Shown here piece by piece: positions 2,397 to 62,099 of a stretch of 64,000 bases of DNA. The notes below the pieces were generated by a model. The model saw nothing but the letters and a program-made list of their open reading frames with translations, was not told the DNA's origin and ran no database searches. Source of the DNA: Thiobacillus denitrificans (GTDB taxonomy: Bacteria; Pseudomonadota; Gammaproteobacteria; Burkholderiales; Thiobacillaceae). Each line of letters starts with the position of its first letter. The stretch's first letter is position 1. A program made the translations under genes and the position numbers. Location of the stretch: the NCBI RefSeq assembly GCF_001530125.1, contig NZ_LDUG01000025.1, forward strand, positions 62,001 to 126,000, read 5' to 3'.

Positions 2397-3785
<1,389 letters not shown>

Positions 3786-3834
3786 CTAAGAAGATTAAAT
3801 TCTGTGCTCGCGTAATTCTGTGTATTGGGCACGT

Positions 3835-4707
3835 TCAAACCGCAGCCGCACCGGCGACGATCTCCGACAGTTCCTTGGTGATCGCAGCCTGCCGGGTCTT
3901 GTTGTAGACCAGCTTCAGCTCGCCGATCACGTCCTTGGCGTTGTCGGAAGCGGATTTCATCGCCACCATCCGCGCCGACTGTTCGCACGCGATGTTCTCG
4001 GCCACGCCCTGATACACCAGCGATTCGATGTAGCGCATCAGCATCTCGTCGACGACTGGCTTGGCATCGGGCTCGTAGATATAGTCCCAGTGCGTTTTCA
4101 GGCTGGCTTCCTCGGCATCTTCCATTTGCGCCAGCGGCAGCAGCTGGGTCAGCGTCGGTTCCTGCTTCATCGTGTTGACGAAACGGTTGTAGACGATGTA
4201 GAGCGCGTCGATCCTGCCTGCCAGATAGGCGTCCAGCATCACCTTGACCGGGCCGATCAGCGTGTCCATGCGCGGGGCATCGCCCAGGCCGGTGAGTTGC
4301 GACACCACGTTGGCGCCGAGGCGCTGCATGAAACCCAGCCCCTTGTTGCCGAGCGCGGTGACGTCGATGCCGACGCCAGCCGCTTCCCATTGCTTCATCT
4401 GGCTCACCACCACGCGAAGGGCATTGGTGTTGAGGCCGCCGCACAGGCCCTTGTCGGAGGTGATGAGGATGAGGCCGACGCGCTTGACGTTGTCACGCGC
4501 GATCACGAACGGATGCTTGTATTCCGTGTGGGCGTACGCCAGATGCGTTGCCACGCGGGCAATTTTCTCGGCATACGGGCGCGCGGCCTTCATGCGCTCC
4601 TGCGCGCGGCGCATCTTGGACGCCGCGACCATTTCCATGGCCTTGGTGATCTTGCACGTGTTTTCCACGCTCTTGATCTTGGTCCGTATCTCTTTTCCGA
4701 CTGCCAT
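3835..4707 (-). CDS. atpG: ATP synthase F1 subunit gamma
   Basis: The rotating central shaft, 290 residues. The N-terminal helix begins [20 protein letters not shown], followed by the Rossmann-like middle domain ([15 protein letters not shown] near residues 75-95), and the C-terminal helix contains [14 protein letters not shown] and [20 protein letters not shown]. These are the conserved family ends. The gene lies between atpA and atpD as expected. Confidence 0.97.
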
Positions 4708-52572: not shown

Positions 52573-53172
52573 TCAGTCGATACGGCGCCAAATCAGCGTG
52601 CGATTATTGGCGGGCATGGCGATATCCTGCTGCAGCACCAGGCCGTGGACGCGCGCCAGCGCGTCCACGGCCTCGAAGTCGCGTACCCCGGAGGCCGGGT
52701 CGCGCGCCTTCAGCCAGGCGTCGAAACGGGCATTGCTCTCCGAGGTGAACGCACCGTTGATGTTGAACGGCCCGTACACCGCCAGCACGCCGCCCGCCTC
52801 GAGCACCGCGTCGACGCCGGCAAAAAAATGCTCGACCTCGGGCCAGCTCATGATGTGCAGGGTGTTGGCCGAAAATACCGCGTCGTAGCGGCCGCCGTGC
52901 CAGGCCGTGTCGTTGGCGTCGAGCGCCAGCGGCGGCCGCACGTTGGGCAGCGCGGCGTCATCGAGCCAGGCCCGGATGCCGGCATGGTGCGGCGGCACGT
53001 CGGCGGTCTGCCAGACGAGATGCGGCAGTTCGGCGCCGAAATACACCGCATGCTGGCCGGTGCCGCTGCCGATTTCCAGCACATGGCGGCGGTCGGCAAA
53101 CCACTCGCGCAGCACGGCCAGGATCGGTGCGCGATTTTGCACGCAGGATTCGGAAAAGGGTTTATCGATCAT
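52573..53172 (-). CDS. DUF938 SAM-dependent methyltransferase
   Basis: 199 residues. The SAM-binding loop is [15 protein letters not shown] near residue 30, with [13 protein letters not shown] at motif IV and [18 protein letters not shown], the family signature. The substrate is unknown. The start overlaps the AddA-like stop by four bases (ATGA), so it is the last gene of that operon. Confidence 0.9.
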
Positions 53173-56100
53173 TTTTGGGCTTCCATCGGAATCAGTCGGC
53201 CGTCGACCAGCAGCAGCGCGGCGTGCACCGGCTTGCCGGGATACAGCTCTGCAAGCAGCGTCTGGTATCCCGCCAGCTGTGGCTGATGGCGCTCGACCAG
53301 CTGCGCGTCGGGGAGGGGACGGCTGTCGCCGCCGGTTTTATAGTCGATCAGCCATACCGCATCGTCGAATTCCACCACGCGGTCGAGCCGCTGCAGGCAG
53401 CCGTCGGCATCCAGCAGCGCCCATTCGTTGTGGGCGCATTGATACTGCGCCGGGTCGAAAAAACGCGATAGATGCGGTTGCGCCAGCAGCGCGTGGGCCG
53501 CGGCCTCGATGGATTCCAGTTCGGCCTCCAGTCCCAGGCGTGCCGCCAGGCCCGGCAGATCGCGCGGTGCCCCGGGCGGCGCATGGGTTTCCAGGCACGC
53601 ATGGAACAGCTCGCCGCTCGCCGCCGCCGGATTCGCGGCCGGTGGGGCGACTCGCTGCCCCACCGCCGGGGCGTCGATCCGGATCGGCACGGCTGTCATG
53701 CCGGCTGCCTCGGCAGCTGCGGGCGGCAGGTCGGCCGGCAGGCCCAGGTTTTGCCAGGCCGCATCGACGCGCGCCAGCCAGGCGTTCTTGCTGGCGTCGC
53801 CGCTCACGATCAGCCCCTGCGCGGCGCGGGTCAGTGCCACATACAAGAGGTTGTCAGATTCGCGCTGCGCCAGCTCGGCCTCTTCCGTGAACCAGCTTTC
53901 CCGAGCCGTCCCCTGATCTTCCTGCTTGCCGAACAGCGAAAAGTGCACGGGCCGGGGGGCTTCGGGCGGCCACGGCGCCAGCACCGCGTAGCTGTCGCCG
54001 CGCGTGTGGTCGCTGCCGCCGAGCAGCCAGACGATCGGCGCTTCCAGCCCCTTGGCGCCGTGGATCGTCAACAGGCGCACCGCGTTTTCGCCGTCGGCCG
54101 CCAGCCCCTCGCCGGGCGCGGCGTCGGCATCGTTGATCAGGCTGGCCAGCTCACGGACGAAACCGGCCAGCGTGGGGTAGCGTCCTGCGTCCTGCGTCAG
54201 CGCCAGTTGCATGAAGGCGCGCAGGTTGGCCGCCACCTGCGGCCGCATCGCCTCGGGTACGGCAGCGGCGTAGCGCGCCTCGAGGTCGCCCTCGAAGTAA
54301 ATGCGGTCGAGCAGGTCATGCACCGGCAGGGTGCCGCAGTGGGCGCGCCAGCGGGTGAGCAGGCGCGCGGCGCGCACCAGCGTCGGCGCTTGGTCCGGCT
54401 GCCCGGCCAGCGCAACCAGCCGCTCCCAGCCGCGCGTGGCGTCGGAGGGGTCGGGTGCGAACACCTGCAGCAGGTCGGCGTCGCTGCAGCCGAAGACCGG
54501 GCACTTCAGCACGTGCGCCAGCTTCAGGTCGGCGTGCGGCAGCAGCAGGGTTTCGATCAGCGCAATCACGTCCTGCGCCTCCAGCGCATGCAGCAGGCCG
54601 CCGCGACGCGAGGTGATGAAGGGGATGCGCGCGGCTTCCAGTTCGCGCTCGTAGAGGTGCAGGTGGGTGCGTTTCCGCACCAGCGCCATAACGTCGCCGG
54701 GGCGCGCTGCGCGCGGCATTTTGCTGCCGTCGTCCATCACCCCCCAGTGCCCCAGTACCTCGTCGCGCAATACCCGGGCAAACTGTCGCGCTTCCTCGTG
54801 CACGGCGCGGTCGTCGGCTTCCGGCTGCGGCGTGGTGAGCGGGTTGCGCAGGCCGCCGGCTGCCATGGCTCCTGTTTTTTCCACCTGCACCGGCAGGCAG
54901 CGCAGCGCGCCTGGGCGCTTGTCGTTTTCCGGCGCGTGCGTGTGTTCGGCAAAGCCCGCAACGCCGGCGAACACCGGGTTGATCGCCTTGACCAGCGCCG
55001 GCGCCAGCCGCCGTGTCATGTCGGTGCTGAAACGCGGCGCGTCAAAATGCGTGTGCAAAAAATCCGCTGCCGCGCTGAAAACTCGCGCTTCGCCGCGGCG
55101 GAAGCGGTAGATCGCCTGCTTGGGGTCGCCTACCATAAACACCGTCATCGCGCTGTCGGCGCCGCGCGCCTCAAGCAGCCAGGTCGACAGCGCCTGCCAC
55201 TGCAACGGGTTGGTGTCCTGGAATTCGTCGAGTAAAAGATGCCGATAACGCGCGTCCAGCTTCAGCGCCAGCGCCGGCGCGTGTTCTTCGCTGGCGAGCA
55301 GGCGGCAGGCCTGCCATTCGGCGTCGGCAAAATCGATCACCCCCTGCTGCGCCTTGGCGTCCTGATAAGCCGCGATCAGCGCGTGGCCGAGCAGCAGGCC
55401 GTGGCGGTTAAGCGCCCAGATGCGCTGGTCGGTCTGGATTGCGGCGATGGTTTCGAGCGCGGTTTCCAGCGTGTCGAGATCGCGCAGGTAGGGATCAAGT
55501 TCGGCGCCGAGCGTCTTTTCCAGTTCCTTGGTCGCCTGCTTCTTGCGCCGCTTGCCCGCTGTCATCAGGTATCTCATTAGTGAGATATGCGCCTCGTCGG
55601 GCGGCAGGCTTAGGCTGCGCTGGATTTCGGGCGCGCGATCCCGCTCACTCTTGCCGCCTTTTTCCAGCGTAAAGCCCACCCGCTTTACCCGCGCCGTCAT
55701 CGTTTCGTCGGCCCAGAACGCCGCCACCGGATCGCTGACGAGGTCTTCGACCAGGCCGGGCCGCAGTTGCGCCAGCGCAAACGCCACCGGATCGGGCTGG
55801 CCATCGGTGTACGCCCACCATTCCGCCCGCGCCTGCACAAAATGCGTCAGCAGCGCGTGCAAACTGTGTTCGCCAAGCTCGGTGAGGAGTGCCAGCAAAG
55901 CCGCGCCTTCGGCTGATTCAGGTTTTGCAGCACCCGCAGGGGGTACGCCGGCGGGTACCCCGCTGCTGCGCAGCGACCCTTCCGCAGCCCATAAGGCCAA
56001 CAGCCGGTCGCGCACCTCGTGCTGCAATTGTTTTTCGCGTTCCAGCAGCGGCGCACCCCACGGCAGCCCCGCTTCCAGCGGCGCCCGTTTCAGCAGATCG

Positions 56101-56477
56101 AGAAACCAGCCGTGGAAGGTCGTTACCGTCGGCCCCGGCTGCGCCGTCAGCACCGTTTCCAGCAACCCGCGCGCGCGCGGCAACAGCGCATCGATCTCGG
56201 CATCCGGCACCGCGCGCTCGCGCAAAAACGCGCGCACCGTCGCGTCGTCCGCCAGCGCCAGCACCCGCAGCCATTCATGCAGGCGGTCGGTCATCTCCTG
56301 CGCCGCCTTGCGCGTGAACGTGATCGCCAGCAACTCCGACGGCGCCGCCCCGGCCAGCAACAGCCGGATCATGCGCGATACCAACAACCAGGTCTTGCCG
56401 CTGCCGGCGCAGGCTTCCACGACCGCTGAGCGAGCGGGGGAAAGAGCGGCGGGGGTGTCGAGTGGGAGGGGCTGCAT
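53169..56477 (-). CDS. AddA/RecB-like UvrD-family helicase-nuclease
   Basis: 1102 residues. Helicase motifs are ACAGSGKTWLL (I, near 25), ITFTRKAAQEM (Ia), LLLDEFQDTNPLQW (II), VGDPKQAIYRFRRGE (III) and YVALTRAAQGL (VI). A C-terminal PD-(D/E)XK nuclease has LDRVVEF and WLIDYKTGG near 1065. With the AddB-like partner at 59026 it should process double-strand ends for recombination. A GTG ten codons upstream is an alternative start. A Gly/Pro-rich stretch (SSGVPAGVPPAGAAKPE) is encoded by a region resembling half of the dispersed palindromic element. Confidence 0.9.
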   Translation of the reverse strand: MQPLPLDTPAALSPARSAVVEACAGSGKTWLLVSRMIRLLLAGAAPSELLAITFTRKAAQEMTDRLHEWLRVLALADDATVRAFLRERAVPDAEIDALLPRARGLLETVLTAQPGPTVTTFHGWFLDLLKRAPLEAGLPWGAPLLEREKQLQHEVRDRLLALWAAEGSLRSSGVPAGVPPAGAAKPESAEGAALLALLTELGEHSLHALLTHFVQARAEWWAYTDGQPDPVAFALAQLRPGLVEDLVSDPVAAFWADETMTARVKRVGFTLEKGGKSERDRAPEIQRSLSLPPDEAHISLMRYLMTAGKRRKKQATKELEKTLGAELDPYLRDLDTLETALETIAAIQTDQRIWALNRHGLLLGHALIAAYQDAKAQQGVIDFADAEWQACRLLASEEHAPALALKLDARYRHLLLDEFQDTNPLQWQALSTWLLEARGADSAMTVFMVGDPKQAIYRFRRGEARVFSAAADFLHTHFDAPRFSTDMTRRLAPALVKAINPVFAGVAGFAEHTHAPENDKRPGALRCLPVQVEKTGAMAAGGLRNPLTTPQPEADDRAVHEEARQFARVLRDEVLGHWGVMDDGSKMPRAARPGDVMALVRKRTHLHLYERELEAARIPFITSRRGGLLHALEAQDVIALIETLLLPHADLKLAHVLKCPVFGCSDADLLQVFAPDPSDATRGWERLVALAGQPDQAPTLVRAARLLTRWRAHCGTLPVHDLLDRIYFEGDLEARYAAAVPEAMRPQVAANLRAFMQLALTQDAGRYPTLAGFVRELASLINDADAAPGEGLAADGENAVRLLTIHGAKGLEAPIVWLLGGSDHTRGDSYAVLAPWPPEAPRPVHFSLFGKQEDQGTARESWFTEEAELAQRESDNLLYVALTRAAQGLIVSGDASKNAWLARVDAAWQNLGLPADLPPAAAEAAGMTAVPIRIDAPAVGQRVAPPAANPAAASGELFHACLETHAPPGAPRDLPGLAARLGLEAELESIEAAAHALLAQPHLSRFFDPAQYQCAHNEWALLDADGCLQRLDRVVEFDDAVWLIDYKTGGDSRPLPDAQLVERHQPQLAGYQTLLAELYPGKPVHAALLLVDGRLIPMEAQK
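55925..55975. repeat. Partial palindromic-element-like sequence in the AddA-like gene (copy D)
   Basis: GCAGCACCCGCAGGGGGTAC resembles the left half of copies at 61546 and 62627, then diverges into its own hairpin (GGGTAC / GTACCC). It is only a partial match. Confidence 0.4.
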
Positions 56478-56497
56478 GGGAAATAATGTCTGTTGCT

Positions 56498-56887
56498 TTA
56501 GTCCCACCAGTACGGATCACTATGGGGGGATAGTGTTATATCCCATTTGTTCTTTGCTTCTAGAAAAGCGCCCACCAATTTTGTCACGTCTCCCCATGGG
56601 GTCAAATTGCTAATTTCTTCACGTGTCGCAGGGCGCACCAATAAAAACTCATGGTAGGCATGGTCATCATCTGTGGGACCGTCTGAATATACGTAAAGCT
56701 CTTCATATAGCGCGGGAACCCCAACTTGTTCAGCCACAAAGGAGCACTCATCCACAAGACATCGCACCAATTTTTTCACTACTGTCTGTGGAAAAGCCCC
56801 AGTCAATAAAATGCTTCCCCACGCCTTGAAATTTGCGGCGTCTCTGTATTGATACTCAAAAACAGTGAAGTGGCGCTTACTGGTCAT
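56498..56887 (-). CDS. Unknown small protein coupled to the methyltransferase-HNH gene
   Basis: 129 residues, acidic, with FEYQYRDAANFKAWGSILLTG, YEELYVYSDGPTDDDHAYHEF and a C-terminal PYWWD. I recognise no family. Its ATG overlaps the stop codon of the upstream methyltransferase-HNH gene by one base (TAATG), so the two are translationally coupled. Base composition is visibly lower in GC than the flanking addA and addB genes, which suggests it came with the cassette. Possible roles are an inhibitor, accessory specificity subunit or immunity factor. Confidence 0.7.
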   Translation of the reverse strand: MTSKRHFTVFEYQYRDAANFKAWGSILLTGAFPQTVVKKLVRCLVDECSFVAEQVGVPALYEELYVYSDGPTDDDHAYHEFLLVRPATREEISNLTPWGDVTKLVGAFLEAKNKWDITLSPHSDPYWWD

Positions 56888-59004
56888 TAGCGCCGTGTCT
56901 TTGCGTCAACGAATATCTCTGTCCGGTGTCGTTCTAAGAATCCGAGGGCAGGGGAAAATCGTTCGGGCAGATCAATGGGTTTTCCCTCTATCGCCAGTAA
57001 AGTGGCGTGCATGAACGGCTCTTTCTTGCGCTTGAGTTCATCCGATACGGCGATGCAAAAATTCTCGTCCAAGGTGATTAACCCGCTGTCGAAAGCTTTG
57101 TCGTGTAGTGCCGATAGACATAACCCATTGCTTGGGTTCAAACGATTGGCCTTGTCCTTGCTCCACGGCACGATGTGACTGGCAATCAATAGCCGTGACT
57201 CCGTAAGCCCTGACATACAGCACCGGCCACGATAGCTGGCTAGGATGGTTCGGCGAAAGAAGTTTTGTTTGATTCGCTGTTCAGTTAAAACCTGTCGAGT
57301 TTCTCCGGTGAAATCAGTTAGGTCAAAAGCCTCATCCGCATCAGGCATCTTGGTGGGTTCGTCGAGACCTTCACGGAGTTGCTTCATTAAAATCGAGCAT
57401 TCCAATGCTAGACCTTCCCAATCCGCGTGAAACTCTTCCCAGACATCTCGATCCAGTAAGGATGCATTGCCCAAGCCGCTACGTCCTGTGCTAGTAATGG
57501 CGGGGTCAAGGCTGGCAATGTTGAGCATTTTCATTGCCACTGCATCGGCAGTGCGGCCAATGATTTTGGCCAACGCAATGATTTCCTTGTTTCTTCCGTC
57601 AATCTTTCCAAATGGAATCTGGCAATACAAATGAAAAGCCAGCTTTACCTGTTCTTTCGTCCAGCGACTTGAACTCATGATGTTTTTCGGCAGTGCGGCA
57701 ATTACAGCCGCAGCGGCCTTCGCCTCAGCTTTGACCAATGGAGCCATGAGTTTAGCGACAGATTCGATCATCGGAACAACCGCCGCATCCGCGAGCAACT
57801 GATAAGCCCGCGTATCCGACACCGGAATCGTGAACGTATCCGGGAAGCCCATCAACCGTGCGCACTCCCTTGGTGTTAAGCGGCGCGGGTTTTTGCTTTC
57901 GCCCTGATAGACCAGAATCTCCGAGCCATCCTTGTAATAGCGGGCGGACAGGGTACGGGTCACGCTGTCGGGGGTGACGAGGCCGAAGCCGAAGCCGTTG
58001 CCTTTCAGGCGATGTTTTTCGGCGTAGTTTTGCAGGTAGCGCCAGAGATTGTCGGTGAGGGTGTATTTATCCTGCACCTTGTTTTGAGCGTGGTCGAAGA
58101 AGCGGTCTTCATCCCAAGGCAGGCGCGGCTCGGTGCCGTCGGTGCGGTGCAAAATTTCTTTCAGCGTGTGCTGTCCCTTGGGCGGCATGGGCAATGCGTC
58201 AAAGTCGAACGCGGCGGGTTCACGAAAGCCGACGATGAGAATGCGCTCGCGGTGTTGTGGGACGAAGTGTGCGCCGTCGATAACGCGGGTGTGGATGTGG
58301 TAACCGAGTTCTTCGCTGAGGGTGCGTTTGATGACGGCGAAGGTACGGCCTTTGTCATGCGAGGTCAGGTTTTTGACGTTTTCCAGCAGGAAGGCGCGCG
58401 GGCGCTTTTCCGCAATGACTCGGGCGACATCGAAAAACAGCGTGCCCTGCGTTTCGCAGGCAAAGCCATGGGCTTTGCCTAATGCGTTCTTTTTTGACAC
58501 GCCGGCGATGGAAAATGGCTGGCATGGGAAACCTGCCAGCAGAACGTCGTGGTCGGGAATGCTGGCGGCCTGAACCTGTGTGATGTCGCCGTTGATGGCG
58601 TGACCGTCGCGAAAATTCTCAGTGTAGGTTTTCTGAGCGTAGCTGTCCCATTCGCTGGTGAAGACGCAGCGCCCTCCAATGGTTTCGAATGCGCGACGGA
58701 TGCCGCCGATCCCGGCAAACAGGTCGATGAAGCTGAACGCGGCCTCACCCTCAAACGGCGGATCGAGCGGCAGAAGTTGTTGCAGGGCGTGGACAACGTA
58801 GGCGGGTGGCACGGACTGGCGGGCTTCCCAACGCCGGATTGTGCGGGCATCTACCTTCAGGTGCCGAGCGATTTTGGTCTGTGAATGGTGTTCGCGGGCG
58901 GCTTTCAGATAGGCCAGAACGGCATCGTCGCCGCCTGTGGTGAGCACAGTGGTAATGGGGATCGGGGCGGACACGGGCTTTCCTCTGGGTATTTTTGCGG
59001 ACAA
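56887..59004 (-). CDS. C5-cytosine DNA methyltransferase fused to an HNH nuclease
   Basis: 705 residues in one frame. An N-terminal helix-turn-helix (TKIARHLKVDARTIRRWE, near 42-60) is followed by a Dcm-type methyltransferase (about 88-425): FIDLFAGIGGIRRAF (motif I), AGFPCQPFSIAG (IV, catalytic Cys), LLENVKNL (VI) and QHRERILIVGF (VIII). Motif X reads LLADAAVVPM rather than the usual GN(A/S)V form. From about 443 a second protein begins with MSSSRWTKEQVKLAFHLYC, which looks like the start of standalone HNH restriction enzymes, and ends with CMSGLTESRLLIASHIVPW and NPSNGLCLSALHDKAFDSG (HNH). The nuclease could also start alone at the ATG at 57678. A self-contained restriction-modification enzyme is likely. 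Confidence 0.92.
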   Translation of the reverse strand: MSAKIPRGKPVSAPIPITTVLTTGGDDAVLAYLKAAREHHSQTKIARHLKVDARTIRRWEARQSVPPAYVVHALQQLLPLDPPFEGEAAFSFIDLFAGIGGIRRAFETIGGRCVFTSEWDSYAQKTYTENFRDGHAINGDITQVQAASIPDHDVLLAGFPCQPFSIAGVSKKNALGKAHGFACETQGTLFFDVARVIAEKRPRAFLLENVKNLTSHDKGRTFAVIKRTLSEELGYHIHTRVIDGAHFVPQHRERILIVGFREPAAFDFDALPMPPKGQHTLKEILHRTDGTEPRLPWDEDRFFDHAQNKVQDKYTLTDNLWRYLQNYAEKHRLKGNGFGFGLVTPDSVTRTLSARYYKDGSEILVYQGESKNPRRLTPRECARLMGFPDTFTIPVSDTRAYQLLADAAVVPMIESVAKLMAPLVKAEAKAAAAVIAALPKNIMSSSRWTKEQVKLAFHLYCQIPFGKIDGRNKEIIALAKIIGRTADAVAMKMLNIASLDPAITSTGRSGLGNASLLDRDVWEEFHADWEGLALECSILMKQLREGLDEPTKMPDADEAFDLTDFTGETRQVLTEQRIKQNFFRRTILASYRGRCCMSGLTESRLLIASHIVPWSKDKANRLNPSNGLCLSALHDKAFDSGLITLDENFCIAVSDELKRKKEPFMHATLLAIEGKPIDLPERFSPALGFLERHRTEIFVDAKTRR

Positions 59005-59025
59005 TACGCCCTGTTTTTGTATTTT

Positions 59026-61770
59026 TCAAGCATGAGGGTCGTCGTCCCACACCCATTCGTCGGTATCTTCGTCAATCGGTATCGAGTCCAGCAGACCTTC
59101 ATCTGGTTCGCTCCACATCCCCTTGCGGCACAGCCCGCGCGCTTCGCAGTACTGGCAGACGGCATCGACGCCATTCGCCCGGAGCGCCGCACCGGCGGCG
59201 ATAGCCCCGAGCAGTTCCGGCAGGCGGCGGCTGATGGCGTCGACGTCGGTTTCGCCATCCAGTTCAAGCAGCGCGACGGGAGTTTCGTTGATCGGCAGGT
59301 AGGCGGCGGCGGCTTCGCTCAGCCAGGCGTAAAACGGCAACTGGATGGCTTCGGCGGGATCCTTGAGTTTTTTCCTGAGGCTGATCGCGGCGCCGGTTTT
59401 GTAGTCGATGACGGTGCGGGCCTCGCCGCCGTCCTGATCTATGCGACCGTCAACGCGATCGACCCGGCCATGCAGGGTGATGTCGCCGAGACCGGGGACG
59501 CTGAACGGCATTTCGTACGCGGCTTCGCCGGATTGATAGCGCCAGCCCTGGGCGACCCAGTCCAGCCAGGCGTCGATGTAGGCGGGCTGGATTTTTTCCC
59601 AGCGGGTGCGCCAGGCGGTGGCGGTGTAGGCGGGCAGCGCGGCGAACTCGGCATTGGACAGTTCACCCAAACGGGTTAGCGCAGTTTCCCGCTCGGGCGG
59701 CGGGGTGCTGTCGTGAAAGCTTTTGAGGATGCGGTGCAGGGCGTTGCCGTAATCGCTCTTGTCGAGCGCGTCGTCGGCTTCATCCAGCTCCTGGATGCCA
59801 AGCACGCTTTTGACGAAAAACCGGTAGGGGCAGTCGAGCAGGGTCTGGTAGGCAGTGGGCGAATAGCGGCGCGGGAGTTGCGCGGCGGACACGGTCGGCG
59901 CGGGTTGCGTACTGGCGCCGGGCAGCGGGCTGGCCAATGTGGGCGGCGTGCCGCTGGCTTGTTCGGGCAGGGCGGTACCCCACGCGGCCTGGTGCAGGGC
60001 CTGCAGCCGCAGCACCAGCGGCGAGGCGGGGTTGGGCTCGTCGTTGTTCCACGCCTGCCAGCTCAAGAGTGCAGGCCCCTGGATCAGCAACTGCATCAGG
60101 TCGGCAGTGGCGGCCTCGGCGTCTTCGGTGGCAGTAGGCAGGCCGAGCTGCGCGCGGGTGGCCTGGGAAAACAGGCCGGGCGCGGCGCGCGCGGGCAGGT
60201 GACGGGCATCGGCGCCGATCACCGCGACGGCGTCGAACAGGCGCCCGCGCGCGGCGGGCAGCGAGGTCAGCACGATGGGGCTGGCGACGCTGGCGTCGAT
60301 GAAGCTGGCCGACTCCAGCGCCAGATTGAGCCAGCGCCGCCATTCGCCGAAGCCGTATTTTTCAGTGTCGTCTGCCAGGTCGCGGCGCAGGGTGTCGAGC
60401 GTGTCGAGCACGCTGGCGCCGGCGGCGTCGGCGTCAAGCGCTGTGTCGAGCCGGGCGAGGCTGTCGGCGAGGCGTGCGAGCCAGACCACGAGCGGCGCGC
60501 GGCGCTGTTCAAACCCCTGGCGGGCGTCGAACAGCGCGGCCAGCCAGGGCGGCAGCGCGGCGAATTCGCGCTGCGCCAGCCGCTGCAGATCGGCCATGCC
60601 CTGCGAAACCCCGTGCCGGCGCAGCGCCAGCTCGAAAGCGAGCACCTGGTCCTGGCGCGCGGCGAGCTCGCCCAGCACGAACGGCGACTTCAGGAGGTCG
60701 AGCAGTTCGACGTGCGGGAAATCGCTCGCCACGCATTCCAGCCAGCGGTCGATGACCGCGGCGGCGGCTGTGGTCGAAAGCGTCCAGCCGGTTTCGTCGG
60801 CCACCAGCACGTCCATGCGTTCGAGCAGCGCGCGCACCCGGCGCGCGGTTTCGCGGTCGAGCGCGATCAGGGCGAGCTCGCGCCTGCCGGCGTGCAGTTG
60901 TTCGGCCACCCAGGTGGCGACGGCGCGCGCTTCGGCTTCCAGATGCGGCGCGGGCGCGAGCGTGATACGGGCCTGCAGCGGCGAGGTGGGGATGCGCCGG
61001 GCGAGGGCGGCAGCGCGGTCGCGCAGCGGCGGATCGGTCAGCTGCCAGGCCTGATGCAGGGTCAGGGCAACGGCGTTTTCGGTGTCCGGCTCGAACAGCG
61101 TGAGCGGGGCGGCCTCGGCGCAGCGGGTGAGAAACTGCTGCTCGACGGCGGTCAGCGTGCCCAGCGCGTAGCCATAGATGGGCTGCGGGGTGGCCTGGAT
61201 AAGCGCAAGCAACACATCCAGCGCGCGCGCATAGCGCGCCTGCGGGTCGTGGCCATCGTTGTTGAGCGCCAGCCACACGGCCTCGATCAGGGCCGTTTCA
61301 TGGTCGAGGCTGCCGGCGTGCAGCGCGCGAATGCGCGAGCCGATTTCGCCGCCCAGCCGCGCGGCCGACAACTCGTCGGCCAACTGCAGCAGTTCGCCGG
61401 CGAGCACCCAGCGGTCGACCGCGCCCAGCCAGTCGACGTGCCGCAGCACGCCGTGCAGGCGCGCCAGCCGCCGTGCCTGCGGCTCGGCGTGGCCGTCGGC
61501 CATGCTGTCGGCCCAGGCTTTCAGCGGGGTGATGCGTGGCGAAATCAGCACCCGCAAGGGGTACGCCGCCAGACGCTCGCCCTGCGGGCGGTCTTGCCGC
61601 AGCACCGCGCGCCGGGCCTGCTGCGCCAGCGCGCGGGCAAAATCCTGCCCGGCACGATGGTTGGGGACGAGCACGGTCAGCCCGGACAGGTCGGGCAGGC
61701 GGTCGGCGTGTTGATCGAGCAGGTGGCGAGCGACGGCATGCGGCAGCGCACCGCCGCCAGAGATTTCCAA
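59026..61770 (-). CDS. AddB-like PD-(D/E)XK nuclease, probable DNA repair protein
   Basis: 914 residues from a TTG. An inactive helicase-like region covers the N-terminal two thirds. The C-terminal nuclease has DRVDGRIDQDGG and TVIDYKTGA, and four Cys (LLDCPYRFF and CQYCEARGLC) in the pattern of the AddB iron-sulphur staple. It partners the AddA-like protein in end resection, but a restriction-modification cassette separates the two genes. The segment LRQDRPQGERLAAYPLRVL, absent from what I expect of the family, comes from copy B of the palindromic element. The frame upstream of the TTG is inside the ferredoxin gene. Confidence 0.87.
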   Translation of the reverse strand: MEISGGGALPHAVARHLLDQHADRLPDLSGLTVLVPNHRAGQDFARALAQQARRAVLRQDRPQGERLAAYPLRVLISPRITPLKAWADSMADGHAEPQARRLARLHGVLRHVDWLGAVDRWVLAGELLQLADELSAARLGGEIGSRIRALHAGSLDHETALIEAVWLALNNDGHDPQARYARALDVLLALIQATPQPIYGYALGTLTAVEQQFLTRCAEAAPLTLFEPDTENAVALTLHQAWQLTDPPLRDRAAALARRIPTSPLQARITLAPAPHLEAEARAVATWVAEQLHAGRRELALIALDRETARRVRALLERMDVLVADETGWTLSTTAAAAVIDRWLECVASDFPHVELLDLLKSPFVLGELAARQDQVLAFELALRRHGVSQGMADLQRLAQREFAALPPWLAALFDARQGFEQRRAPLVVWLARLADSLARLDTALDADAAGASVLDTLDTLRRDLADDTEKYGFGEWRRWLNLALESASFIDASVASPIVLTSLPAARGRLFDAVAVIGADARHLPARAAPGLFSQATRAQLGLPTATEDAEAATADLMQLLIQGPALLSWQAWNNDEPNPASPLVLRLQALHQAAWGTALPEQASGTPPTLASPLPGASTQPAPTVSAAQLPRRYSPTAYQTLLDCPYRFFVKSVLGIQELDEADDALDKSDYGNALHRILKSFHDSTPPPERETALTRLGELSNAEFAALPAYTATAWRTRWEKIQPAYIDAWLDWVAQGWRYQSGEAAYEMPFSVPGLGDITLHGRVDRVDGRIDQDGGEARTVIDYKTGAAISLRKKLKDPAEAIQLPFYAWLSEAAAAYLPINETPVALLELDGETDVDAISRRLPELLGAIAAGAALRANGVDAVCQYCEARGLCRKGMWSEPDEGLLDSIPIDEDTDEWVWDDDPHA
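61546..61605. repeat. Dispersed palindromic element, copy B (inside the AddB-like gene)
   Basis: CAGCACCCGCAAGGGGTACG, the loop CCGCCAGACGCTCG, then CCCTGCGGGCGGTCTTGCCG. The arms CCCGCAGGG-type/CCCTGCGGG pair. It matches copy C at nearly every position and copy A outside its extra segment. Confidence 0.78.
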
Positions 61771-61775
61771 GCGGC

Positions 61776-62099
61776 TCAGCGCTCCAGATATTTCAGCTTG
61801 TCCTTGACGCCGGCCCATTCGTCGGCGTCGGGCAGCGCATCCTTGCTCTCGATGATGACCTTCCACTGCTTGGCGAGCTCGGCGTTGAGCGCGATGTAGG
61901 CGCGCTGGTCGTCCGGTACGTCGTCTTCGGCAAAGATGGCCTCGACCGGGCATTCGGCCACGCACAGGGTGCAGTCGATGCACTCCTCGGGGTCGATGAC
62001 GAGGAAGTTGGGCCCCTCGTGGAAGCAGTCCACCGGACAGACATCGACACAATCGGTATATTTGCACTTTATGCAGGCGTCAGCTACAACGTAGGTCAT
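61776..62099 (-). CDS. fdxA: 7Fe ferredoxin (FdxA type)
   Basis: 107 residues. [24 protein letters not shown] carries the first cluster Cys set (3Fe-4S/4Fe-4S arrangement CxxxxxxC...CP) and [16 protein letters not shown] the second. The C-terminal extension ([15 protein letters not shown]) is typical of this family. It is a low-potential electron carrier. The AddB-like gene starts five bases after its stop. It is divergent from trxA. Confidence 0.95.

Follow-up and report, generated by a model that had tools for sequence, protein, structure and literature searches.

A cytosine C5-methyltransferase fused in frame to an HNH nuclease between addB and addA of Thiobacillus denitrificans

Introduction

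The question raised by this locus of Thiobacillus denitrificans is whether one open reading frame (ORF) truly encodes both a cytosine C5-methyltransferase and an HNH nuclease, and what such a protein would do. The locus lies in the window, that is, the whole stretch of 64,000 nucleotides analysed here (contig NZ_LDUG01000025.1, positions 62,001 to 126,000). The initial annotation had proposed the fusion; it passed over the small partner gene, the addB-addA site, the replacement of an EcoRII/MvaI-type endonuclease and the mobility of the HNH module. In a full-text literature search, no paper was recognised as describing a C5-methyltransferase/HNH fusion, and predicted REBASE entries may exist.

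Results

An uninterrupted frame encodes a methyltransferase and a complete HNH nuclease

The gene is a single uninterrupted frame of 705 amino acids (aa), in which the following features were recognised:

56887..59004, minus strand: fusion gene for C5-methyltransferase and HNH nuclease (705 codons), opening with TTG at 59004 or possibly with the GTG at residue 11
58819..58920, minus strand: N-terminal helix-turn-helix (HTH), residues 29-62, from sub-threshold Pfam HTH matches and from helices that a model shows with moderate local confidence
57751..58737, minus strand: C5-methyltransferase domain, residues 90-418, catalytic PCQ at 160-162 (PF00145, E 1.1e-78; motif table)
57769..57795, minus strand: remodelled motif X, residues 404-412 (LADAAVVPM), the left boundary of the exchanged module (alignment and motif table)
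57679..57726, minus strand: linker of residues 427-442; its Pro439 is unchanged across 30 aligned fusions
56890..57678, minus strand: complete HNH nuclease half, residues 443-705, with HNH_2 at 595-646 (57067-57222)

The presence of both Pfam domains in this frame bore out the proposal of one frame for the two enzymes. The true start may be the internal GTG, because residues 7-10 are gaps in 28 of the 30 aligned rows. The methyltransferase half is of the Dcm/EcoRII type; the PADLOC Type II methyltransferase model PDLC03361 matched residues 42-427 (E 1.8e-150), and the nearest solved structure is 3lx6/3me5 from Shigella flexneri. In the second half, HNH_2 scored 45.9 bits (E 5e-12), above its cut-off of 21, and the H-N-H residues H610, N626 and H634 were unchanged across 30 fused proteins. 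The PADLOC HNH model PDLC04132 matched residues 425-702 (E 3.7e-114) with its positions 6-276 of 286, and this almost end-to-end coverage indicated an entire HNH protein in the second half. The proposal that the HNH half begins anew near residue 443 with an intact HNH centre thus agreed with the data, Met443 aligning with the start Met of stand-alone HNH relatives. The N-terminal HTH that had also been proposed was matched weakly, all Pfam matches being below their cut-offs (best E 4e-4); it is of the type fused as a repressor domain to M.EcoRII and M.Ecl18kI (PMC12707154, in excerpt), and by this analogy the suggested autoregulation may apply. The full-length structure model, with a predicted local distance difference test score (pLDDT) of 66, was too poor for use; in a Foldseek search with it, all matches among the 50 listed were methyltransferases or their complexes.

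The fusion is a real gene shared by many genomes

The same fusion was sought in other genomes. From the species genome collection, stretches hit by six peptide patterns were taken, and the 80 best matches to the window protein among them were analysed, many of which are metagenome assemblies. Since three of the six patterns fall inside the HNH half, fused loci are over-represented and the fractions given here are not frequencies in nature. The 80 loci comprised 34 with both halves and 46 with the methyltransferase but without a strong HNH match (solo loci), two of which, L042 and L061, hold weak HNH matches (E 2e-9 and 6e-20, respectively). Both halves were in one frame at 32 of the 34 loci, including three that run into a contig end (L027, L028 and L072) and several from named isolates (e.g. 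L017, L018 and L024). The exceptions were L025, with an in-frame TAA at the junction of the halves, and L026, with a stop and frame changes within the methyltransferase half. A sequence error, missed stop or assembly artefact was ruled out by the frame shared at these 32 loci, and the fusion of a C5-methyltransferase with an HNH nuclease was confirmed as a real gene.

We also considered two products arising through an internal start. A Met lies at most seven residues before Trp448 in 25 of 30 fused rows, and a Shine-Dalgarno-like tetramer precedes it in five of these 25 (L006, L011, L016, L024 and L031) and not in the window; with so few tetramers before the Met443 position, internal initiation was considered less likely and was not adopted as the principal interpretation.

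The fusion sequence is single-copy in its genome. Of 60 relatives searched at E 1e-60, four carried the fused form, five the solo form and none both. Among the 5000 best plasmid records, no place covered 80% of the fusion protein, and among the 80 viral contigs listed no match extended past fusion residue 465; three of those contigs hold weak, distant HNH matches.

Motif X is remodelled in the fused methyltransferases

The initial annotation had attributed all key C5-methyltransferase motifs to the protein. Motifs I, IV (PCQ), VI (ENV), VIII (QxRxR) and IX are indeed intact, but motif X is not: the window has LADAAVVPM where solo relatives mostly show FGNSVVVDV. Across the fused proteins, PCQ was kept in 29 of 30, and the S-adenosylmethionine (AdoMet) motif I, ENV and QxRxR in all 30. 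All 45 solo proteins examined read FGN, then S, T or C, then V, and 28 of the 30 fused ones have S or A and then D, Q or E, the other two being L013 with AG and L016 with SN. The Asn is thus gone in 29 of 30, L016 keeping the Asn only. Outside the 30-row alignment, L025, L027 and L072 likewise show a motif X of the fused type. When columns separating fused from solo proteins were filtered over residues 25-420, only 407, 408, 411 and 412 passed, and these adjoin the Gly-Asn pair at 405-406. A GN motif of this kind was present in 78 of the 79 viral-contig methyltransferases assessed among 80 matches listed, the remaining one being a truncated frame.

According to a review, Q82 and N304 of M.HhaI lie in motifs IV and X, common to all C5-methyltransferases; N304A is required for bulky payloads, and Q82A/N304A only modestly reduces methyltransferase activity (PMC10666283, in excerpt). 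The loss of Gly-Asn therefore predicts an altered, not necessarily dead, enzyme. CmoX, a natural DNA C5-carboxymethyltransferase, has an Arg in the pocket (PMC12783734, in excerpt). The motif X position of the 30 fused proteins holds Asp, Gln, Glu, Gly or Asn, and with no Lys or Arg there, use of carboxy-S-adenosylmethionine (Cx-SAM) is not predicted.

Endonuclease remnants indicate the direction of the replacement

At a typical solo locus, dcm is accompanied by vsr (matched in 36 of 46), by an endonuclease gene of EcoRII or MvaI type and by a small ORF. That conserved ORF, matched in 28 of 46, lies between dcm and vsr and is about 95-101 aa long (e.g. L030 5113-5418 and L033 7310-7615); its L030 copy had no Pfam match. 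A complete endonuclease, defined as at least 90% of a reference, was found at 35 of the 46 solo loci versus 0 of the 35 fused loci (window included), with references drawn from solo loci, so that other endonuclease types would be missed, and with less than 2.5 kb behind the fusion at nine of the 34 database fused loci (none at L028) and more at the other 25. Thirteen fused loci retain only the 3′ part of an endonuclease gene, beginning at residue 170-379 of references of 414-465 aa. These remnants were best matched by five different reference proteins, and those tested with Pfam were EcoRII-C (PF09019) or MvaI_BcnI (PF15515), which gives the direction from an ordinary restriction-modification (R-M) system to the fusion, at least in those 13 loci. 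Vsr was matched in one of the 34 fused loci, L031, antisense at the start of the methyltransferase gene; this match was taken as spurious.

The HNH nuclease was grafted repeatedly onto dcm/EcoRII-type genes

A tree of the methyltransferases was built on residues 30-395 (75 rows, motif X excluded, quick search with SH-aLRT only), omitting the broken or partial fusions L025, L026, L027, L028 and L072 and the cut solo L078. The fused/solo label required 23 changes on it against a shuffled mean of 23.7, so the label is unclustered, and at least 13 of the changes were forced by starred branches. The window methyltransferase is 96% identical over residues 30-395 to that of L030, where a solo system of EcoRII type occupies the equivalent position between addB and addA. 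It is also 96% identical to that of the fused L002, whose HNH half is 65% identical; the nearest HNH half is that of L003, at 72%. Compared across 435 fused pairs, methyltransferase and HNH identities were only moderately correlated (r 0.54).

The exchange was followed to the base in the fused L009 and the solo L052, both from Rugosibacter. They share 96.1% DNA identity over 7.2 kb ending at the motif X codons, beyond which L009 has 1258 bp where L052 has 1804 bp; identity then resumes at 96.3% inside the endonuclease gene. The same left boundary was found in eight other pairs inspected base by base, nine in total, and the right boundaries vary inside the endonuclease gene. By these comparisons, the HNH nuclease was shown to be a recurrent graft, joined in frame again and again to the 3′ end of dcm/EcoRII-type genes.

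Synonymous conservation was examined as a sign of a homing target. Windows of 12 codons starting at 386-391 lie 0.17-0.18 above background (mean 0.089, standard deviation 0.040), and those starting at 111-117 reach 0.17-0.21. The mild rise at the boundary, exceeded in region 111-117, was not decisive.

Both halves are under purifying selection

Selection was gauged on six fused pairs whose halves had diverged in step (L018/L020, L005/L006, L005/L008, L006/L008, L007/L010 and L010/L012). Their ratio of nonsynonymous to synonymous rates (dN/dS) spanned 0.036-0.108 in the methyltransferase half and 0.017-0.099 in the HNH half, and that of the 14 closest solo pairs 0.051-0.100. Both halves are under strong purifying selection, and the low methyltransferase values argue against a dead carrier domain.

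A small partner gene follows the HNH half

56498..56887, minus strand: small partner gene, type A, 129 aa; its start codon overlaps the fusion stop (TAATG), and it is conserved behind HNH elsewhere

Searches of Pfam, NCBIfam and PADLOC at up to E 1 found nothing for the type A protein, and its confident AlphaFold2 model (pLDDT 87) had no match in the PDB (best E 0.41). Type A or a second type, B, was found behind the HNH half at 29 of 34 fused loci that have sequence beyond it (20 A, 17 B, 8 both) and at 0 of 46 solo loci, with the A and B models built from the same loci in which they were counted. ORFs of types C and D stand in their place at L002, L024 and L038, and no recognised small partner follows the fusion at L025 and L040. 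The partner type follows the HNH tree, with 10 changes against a shuffled mean of 16.3 and 0 of 200 shuffles as low.

Relatives of type A also occur elsewhere. They lie in four plasmid regions with no annotated HNH gene adjoining and in viral contigs amid small unknown genes (L272 3995-4387 and L276 3995-4339). At L119 (2462-3097), a 211-aa protein behind a stand-alone HNH gene is a fusion of types B and A. At L129 (1864-4361) and L153 (2013-4370), a type A and a type B gene, respectively, follow a large protein of 658-664 aa with no HNH match seen, presumably a DUF2075-like helicase/nuclease, so the partners may serve several nucleases. At L130 (near 1601-2815 and about 3534-3884), a type A relative adjoins a gene whose product is presumably a PAAR effector.

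The HNH unit occurs on its own

HNH genes without a methyltransferase occupy unrelated sites. In another family, two-gene operons of HNH (62-65% identity) and type B were found at L150, L151, L154 and L155; L159 is of the same kind with B first, the operon of this type at L156 has an HNH at 44%, and L152 has its HNH in two pieces. Stand-alone HNH genes without a partner are those of L099 (63%) and of L100 and L101 (42-43%). Genome G405 carries a dcm fragment of 187 codons at a different place from its stand-alone HNH gene. Among solved structures, PDB 6yex (E 1.8e-19 over profile positions 92-218) is the one clear relative of the HNH half, and we take it to be a modification-dependent enzyme. 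Two further observations concern related genes. In Neisseria gonorrhoeae, a lone HNH relative with 43% identity lies at L089 (2953-4744) together with an ORF of 113 aa and a Vsr-like gene, all between what are presumably pheS and pheT. In genome G000, L083 (G000:C52, 1456-3432) holds a second, different C5-methyltransferase gene (304 aa), followed by a presumed integron-type integrase gene.

The locus lies between addB and addA

59026..62067, minus strand: AddB-like gene upstream (NCBIfam TIGR02786, E 1.5e-34, below cut-off)
53169..56507, minus strand: AddA-like gene downstream (NCBIfam TIGR02784, E 1.3e-110, below cut-off)

With these neighbours, the fusion and its partner sit between addB and addA, and a restriction locus is thus placed inside a break-repair operon (53169-62067 of the window, and relatives). 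Fused forms occupy this site in the window, L002, L003 and L027, whose contig starts in the methyltransferase, and solo EcoRII-type systems do so in L030, L032 and L033. In L118, from a genome of the same genus, HNH and partner adjoin addA, the only one of the two genes seen there. The junction in several Thiobacillus/Sulfuriferula-type genomes thus holds, exchangeably, an EcoRII-type system, an HNH fusion, or HNH and partner alone.

Discussion

We consider with moderate confidence that the fusion is a single-chain R-M enzyme made by capture of an HNH nuclease. With no resident endonuclease, and with a methyltransferase selected as in solo systems, this is the simplest reading. The target is probably CCWGG, judging from the EcoRII/MvaI partners. 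The methyltransferase half would recognise this old target and would still protect the host by methylation, the remodelled cofactor loop changing its rate, and the HNH half would take over from the lost endonuclease and cut unmodified sites. The HTH may autoregulate the operon, the small protein might modulate or hold the nuclease, and one chain would keep cleavage and modification in a fixed ratio, as the initial annotation proposed, and avoid a free endonuclease. By our own argument, a host already methylated at CCWGG should suffer no harm when one endonuclease with this target is swapped for another, in keeping with the 23 label changes.

Several observations weigh against a single-chain R-M enzyme. 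The motif X Gly-Asn pair is found in 0 of 30 fused and 45 of 45 solo proteins. L003 (1488-3578) reads PWQ, with either Trp for the catalytic Cys or a wrong metagenome base. In L026 the methyltransferase half is broken while HNH and partner are open, and L118 has HNH and partner without a methyltransferase, so the HNH nuclease is apparently not lethal without it. Vsr (PF03852), the usual companion of Dcm-type methylation, was found in 0 of 6 fused versus 5 of 5 solo whole genomes (Fisher p 0.002), with completeness of only 81-87% in three fused and two solo genomes. A PF00145 search of six HNH host genomes that are 99-100% complete gave no match (G113, G519 and G464 with HNH at 62-65%; G096, G204 and G479 at 43-46%), so the free HNH nuclease is independent of protection by 5-methylcytosine (5mC).

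Much of this would also suit a reader rather than a writer, an explanation we regard as possible but unlikely: the methyltransferase half would deposit no 5mC but flip the CCWGG cytosine and steer the HNH nuclease in a Type IV-like manner, for example to DNA bearing foreign Dcm-type methylation. Consistent with it are the loss of Gly-Asn in 30 of 30 fused proteins against its presence in 45 of 45 solo and 78 of 79 viral-contig relatives assessed, the failure to find Vsr in the six fused genomes, the free HNH relatives in genomes without a detectable C5-methyltransferase, and 6yex, presumably modification-dependent, as the only clear solved relative; L003, L026 and L118 also keep it alive. The absence of C5-methyltransferases is itself not significant: six of eight stand-alone-HNH genomes at least 90% complete (G113, G096, G204, G519, G479, G464, G405 and G523) lacked PF00145 versus 61 of 150 phylum-sample genomes (Fisher p 0.07), and three of the six (G096, G204 and G479) have HNH identities of only 43-46%, so a Type IV role was not accepted on this ground. 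Fused genomes can, moreover, carry other C5-methyltransferases (G000 and G128). The catalytic Cys kept in 29 of 30 fused proteins, motif I kept in 30 of 30 and the purifying selection also argue against a mere reader, as does M.HhaI Q82A/N304A, which keeps most methylation activity (PMC10666283, in excerpt); and an enzyme that reads methylated CCWGG would turn on its own methylated host as soon as the graft occurred.

The constant left boundary in nine pairs, the varied right boundaries inside the endonuclease gene and the unclustered label are compatible with, the boundary not being diagnostic of, a homing-like parasite whose HNH nuclease would cut uninvaded dcm at the motif X codons, with repair copying the module in and the recoded motif X rendering the invaded allele immune. 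We think this improbable: any homologous exchange would give a constant left boundary, since it is at this point that the alleles begin to differ; the rise in synonymous conservation near it is only mild and is surpassed in another region; stand-alone HNH genes lie at unrelated sites; and the methyltransferase half remains selected. That selection likewise speaks against a nuclease-immunity pair of toxin-antitoxin kind, in which the methyltransferase would be a mere carrier and A or B would neutralise the HNH nuclease, an improbable account despite the dissimilar small proteins (A, B, C and D) behind HNH, with A or B in 29 of 34, the HNH and B operons without a methyltransferase, and the partner type that follows the HNH tree (10 changes versus 16.3). 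Some HNH relatives (L099-L101, L040 and L025) have no recognised small partner, and in four plasmid regions and in phage contigs, type A relatives have no annotated HNH neighbour.

Compared with known systems, the single-chain R-M enzyme proposed here resembles the Type IIC enzymes in having endonuclease and methyltransferase domains in one polypeptide. Those enzymes (e.g. MmeI, Eco57I and BtgZI) mostly combine an N-terminal PD-(D/E)XK nuclease with a gamma-class methyltransferase, BtgZI being an exception with an alpha-class methyltransferase and a C-terminal PD-type nuclease (PMC4081073, in excerpt). The fusion departs from this majority make-up with its C5-methyltransferase (PF00145) and C-terminal HNH_2, and is a new variation on single-chain (Type IIC) enzymes. 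It is close to EcoRII/MvaI-type systems, with a methyltransferase up to 96% identical and the same addB-addA site (L030, L032 and L033), but no complete endonuclease or credible vsr was found at fused loci, motif X is changed and the HNH is in frame. Among Dcm/EcoRII C5-methyltransferases it shares motifs I, IV, VI, VIII and IX (with PWQ in L003) but not the Gly-Asn of motif X. The HNH catalytic domain is common to the HNH modification-dependent enzymes (6yex; the TagI/VcaMI class, PMC12707154, in excerpt; NF045808), whereas the fusion has its own helical N-terminal part: no SRA, EVE or SBD match was found in Pfam up to E 1, and NF045808 matched the HNH part only, at 56.7 bits against a cut-off of 180. 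With CmoX the fused proteins share the C5-methyltransferase fold and an altered transfer-group pocket, but CmoX has Arg and the engineered M.MpeI has Lys (PMC12783734, in excerpt) where, by our own reading of the position correspondence, the fused proteins have Asp, Gln, Glu, Gly or Asn. Toxin-immunity pairs have a constant cognate immunity gene; the fusion-type HNH differs, some of its relatives having no recognised partner.

These results indicate that R-M systems swap their cutting enzyme by recurrent capture of a module at one fixed point, with the 3′ endonuclease remnants revealing the direction of capture in 13 cases. They also describe a natural C5-methyltransferase family that keeps its other catalytic motifs while 29 of 30 members lack the Asn of motif X and all 30 lack the Gly-Asn pair. 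Since isolates such as Dechloromonas denitrificans ATCC BAA-841, Parachitinimonas caeni and Macromonas bipunctata carry the fusion, its methylation status is directly testable. It is a tentative and rather doubtful idea that the cassette of HNH and small protein spreads by seizing dcm 3′ ends, displaces the resident endonuclease and, by recoding the loop that contacts AdoMet, makes of the methyltransferase a non-methylating or chemically altered recognition subunit; if true, a former DNA methyltransferase would be guiding a nuclease that is antagonistic to the R-M systems it replaces.

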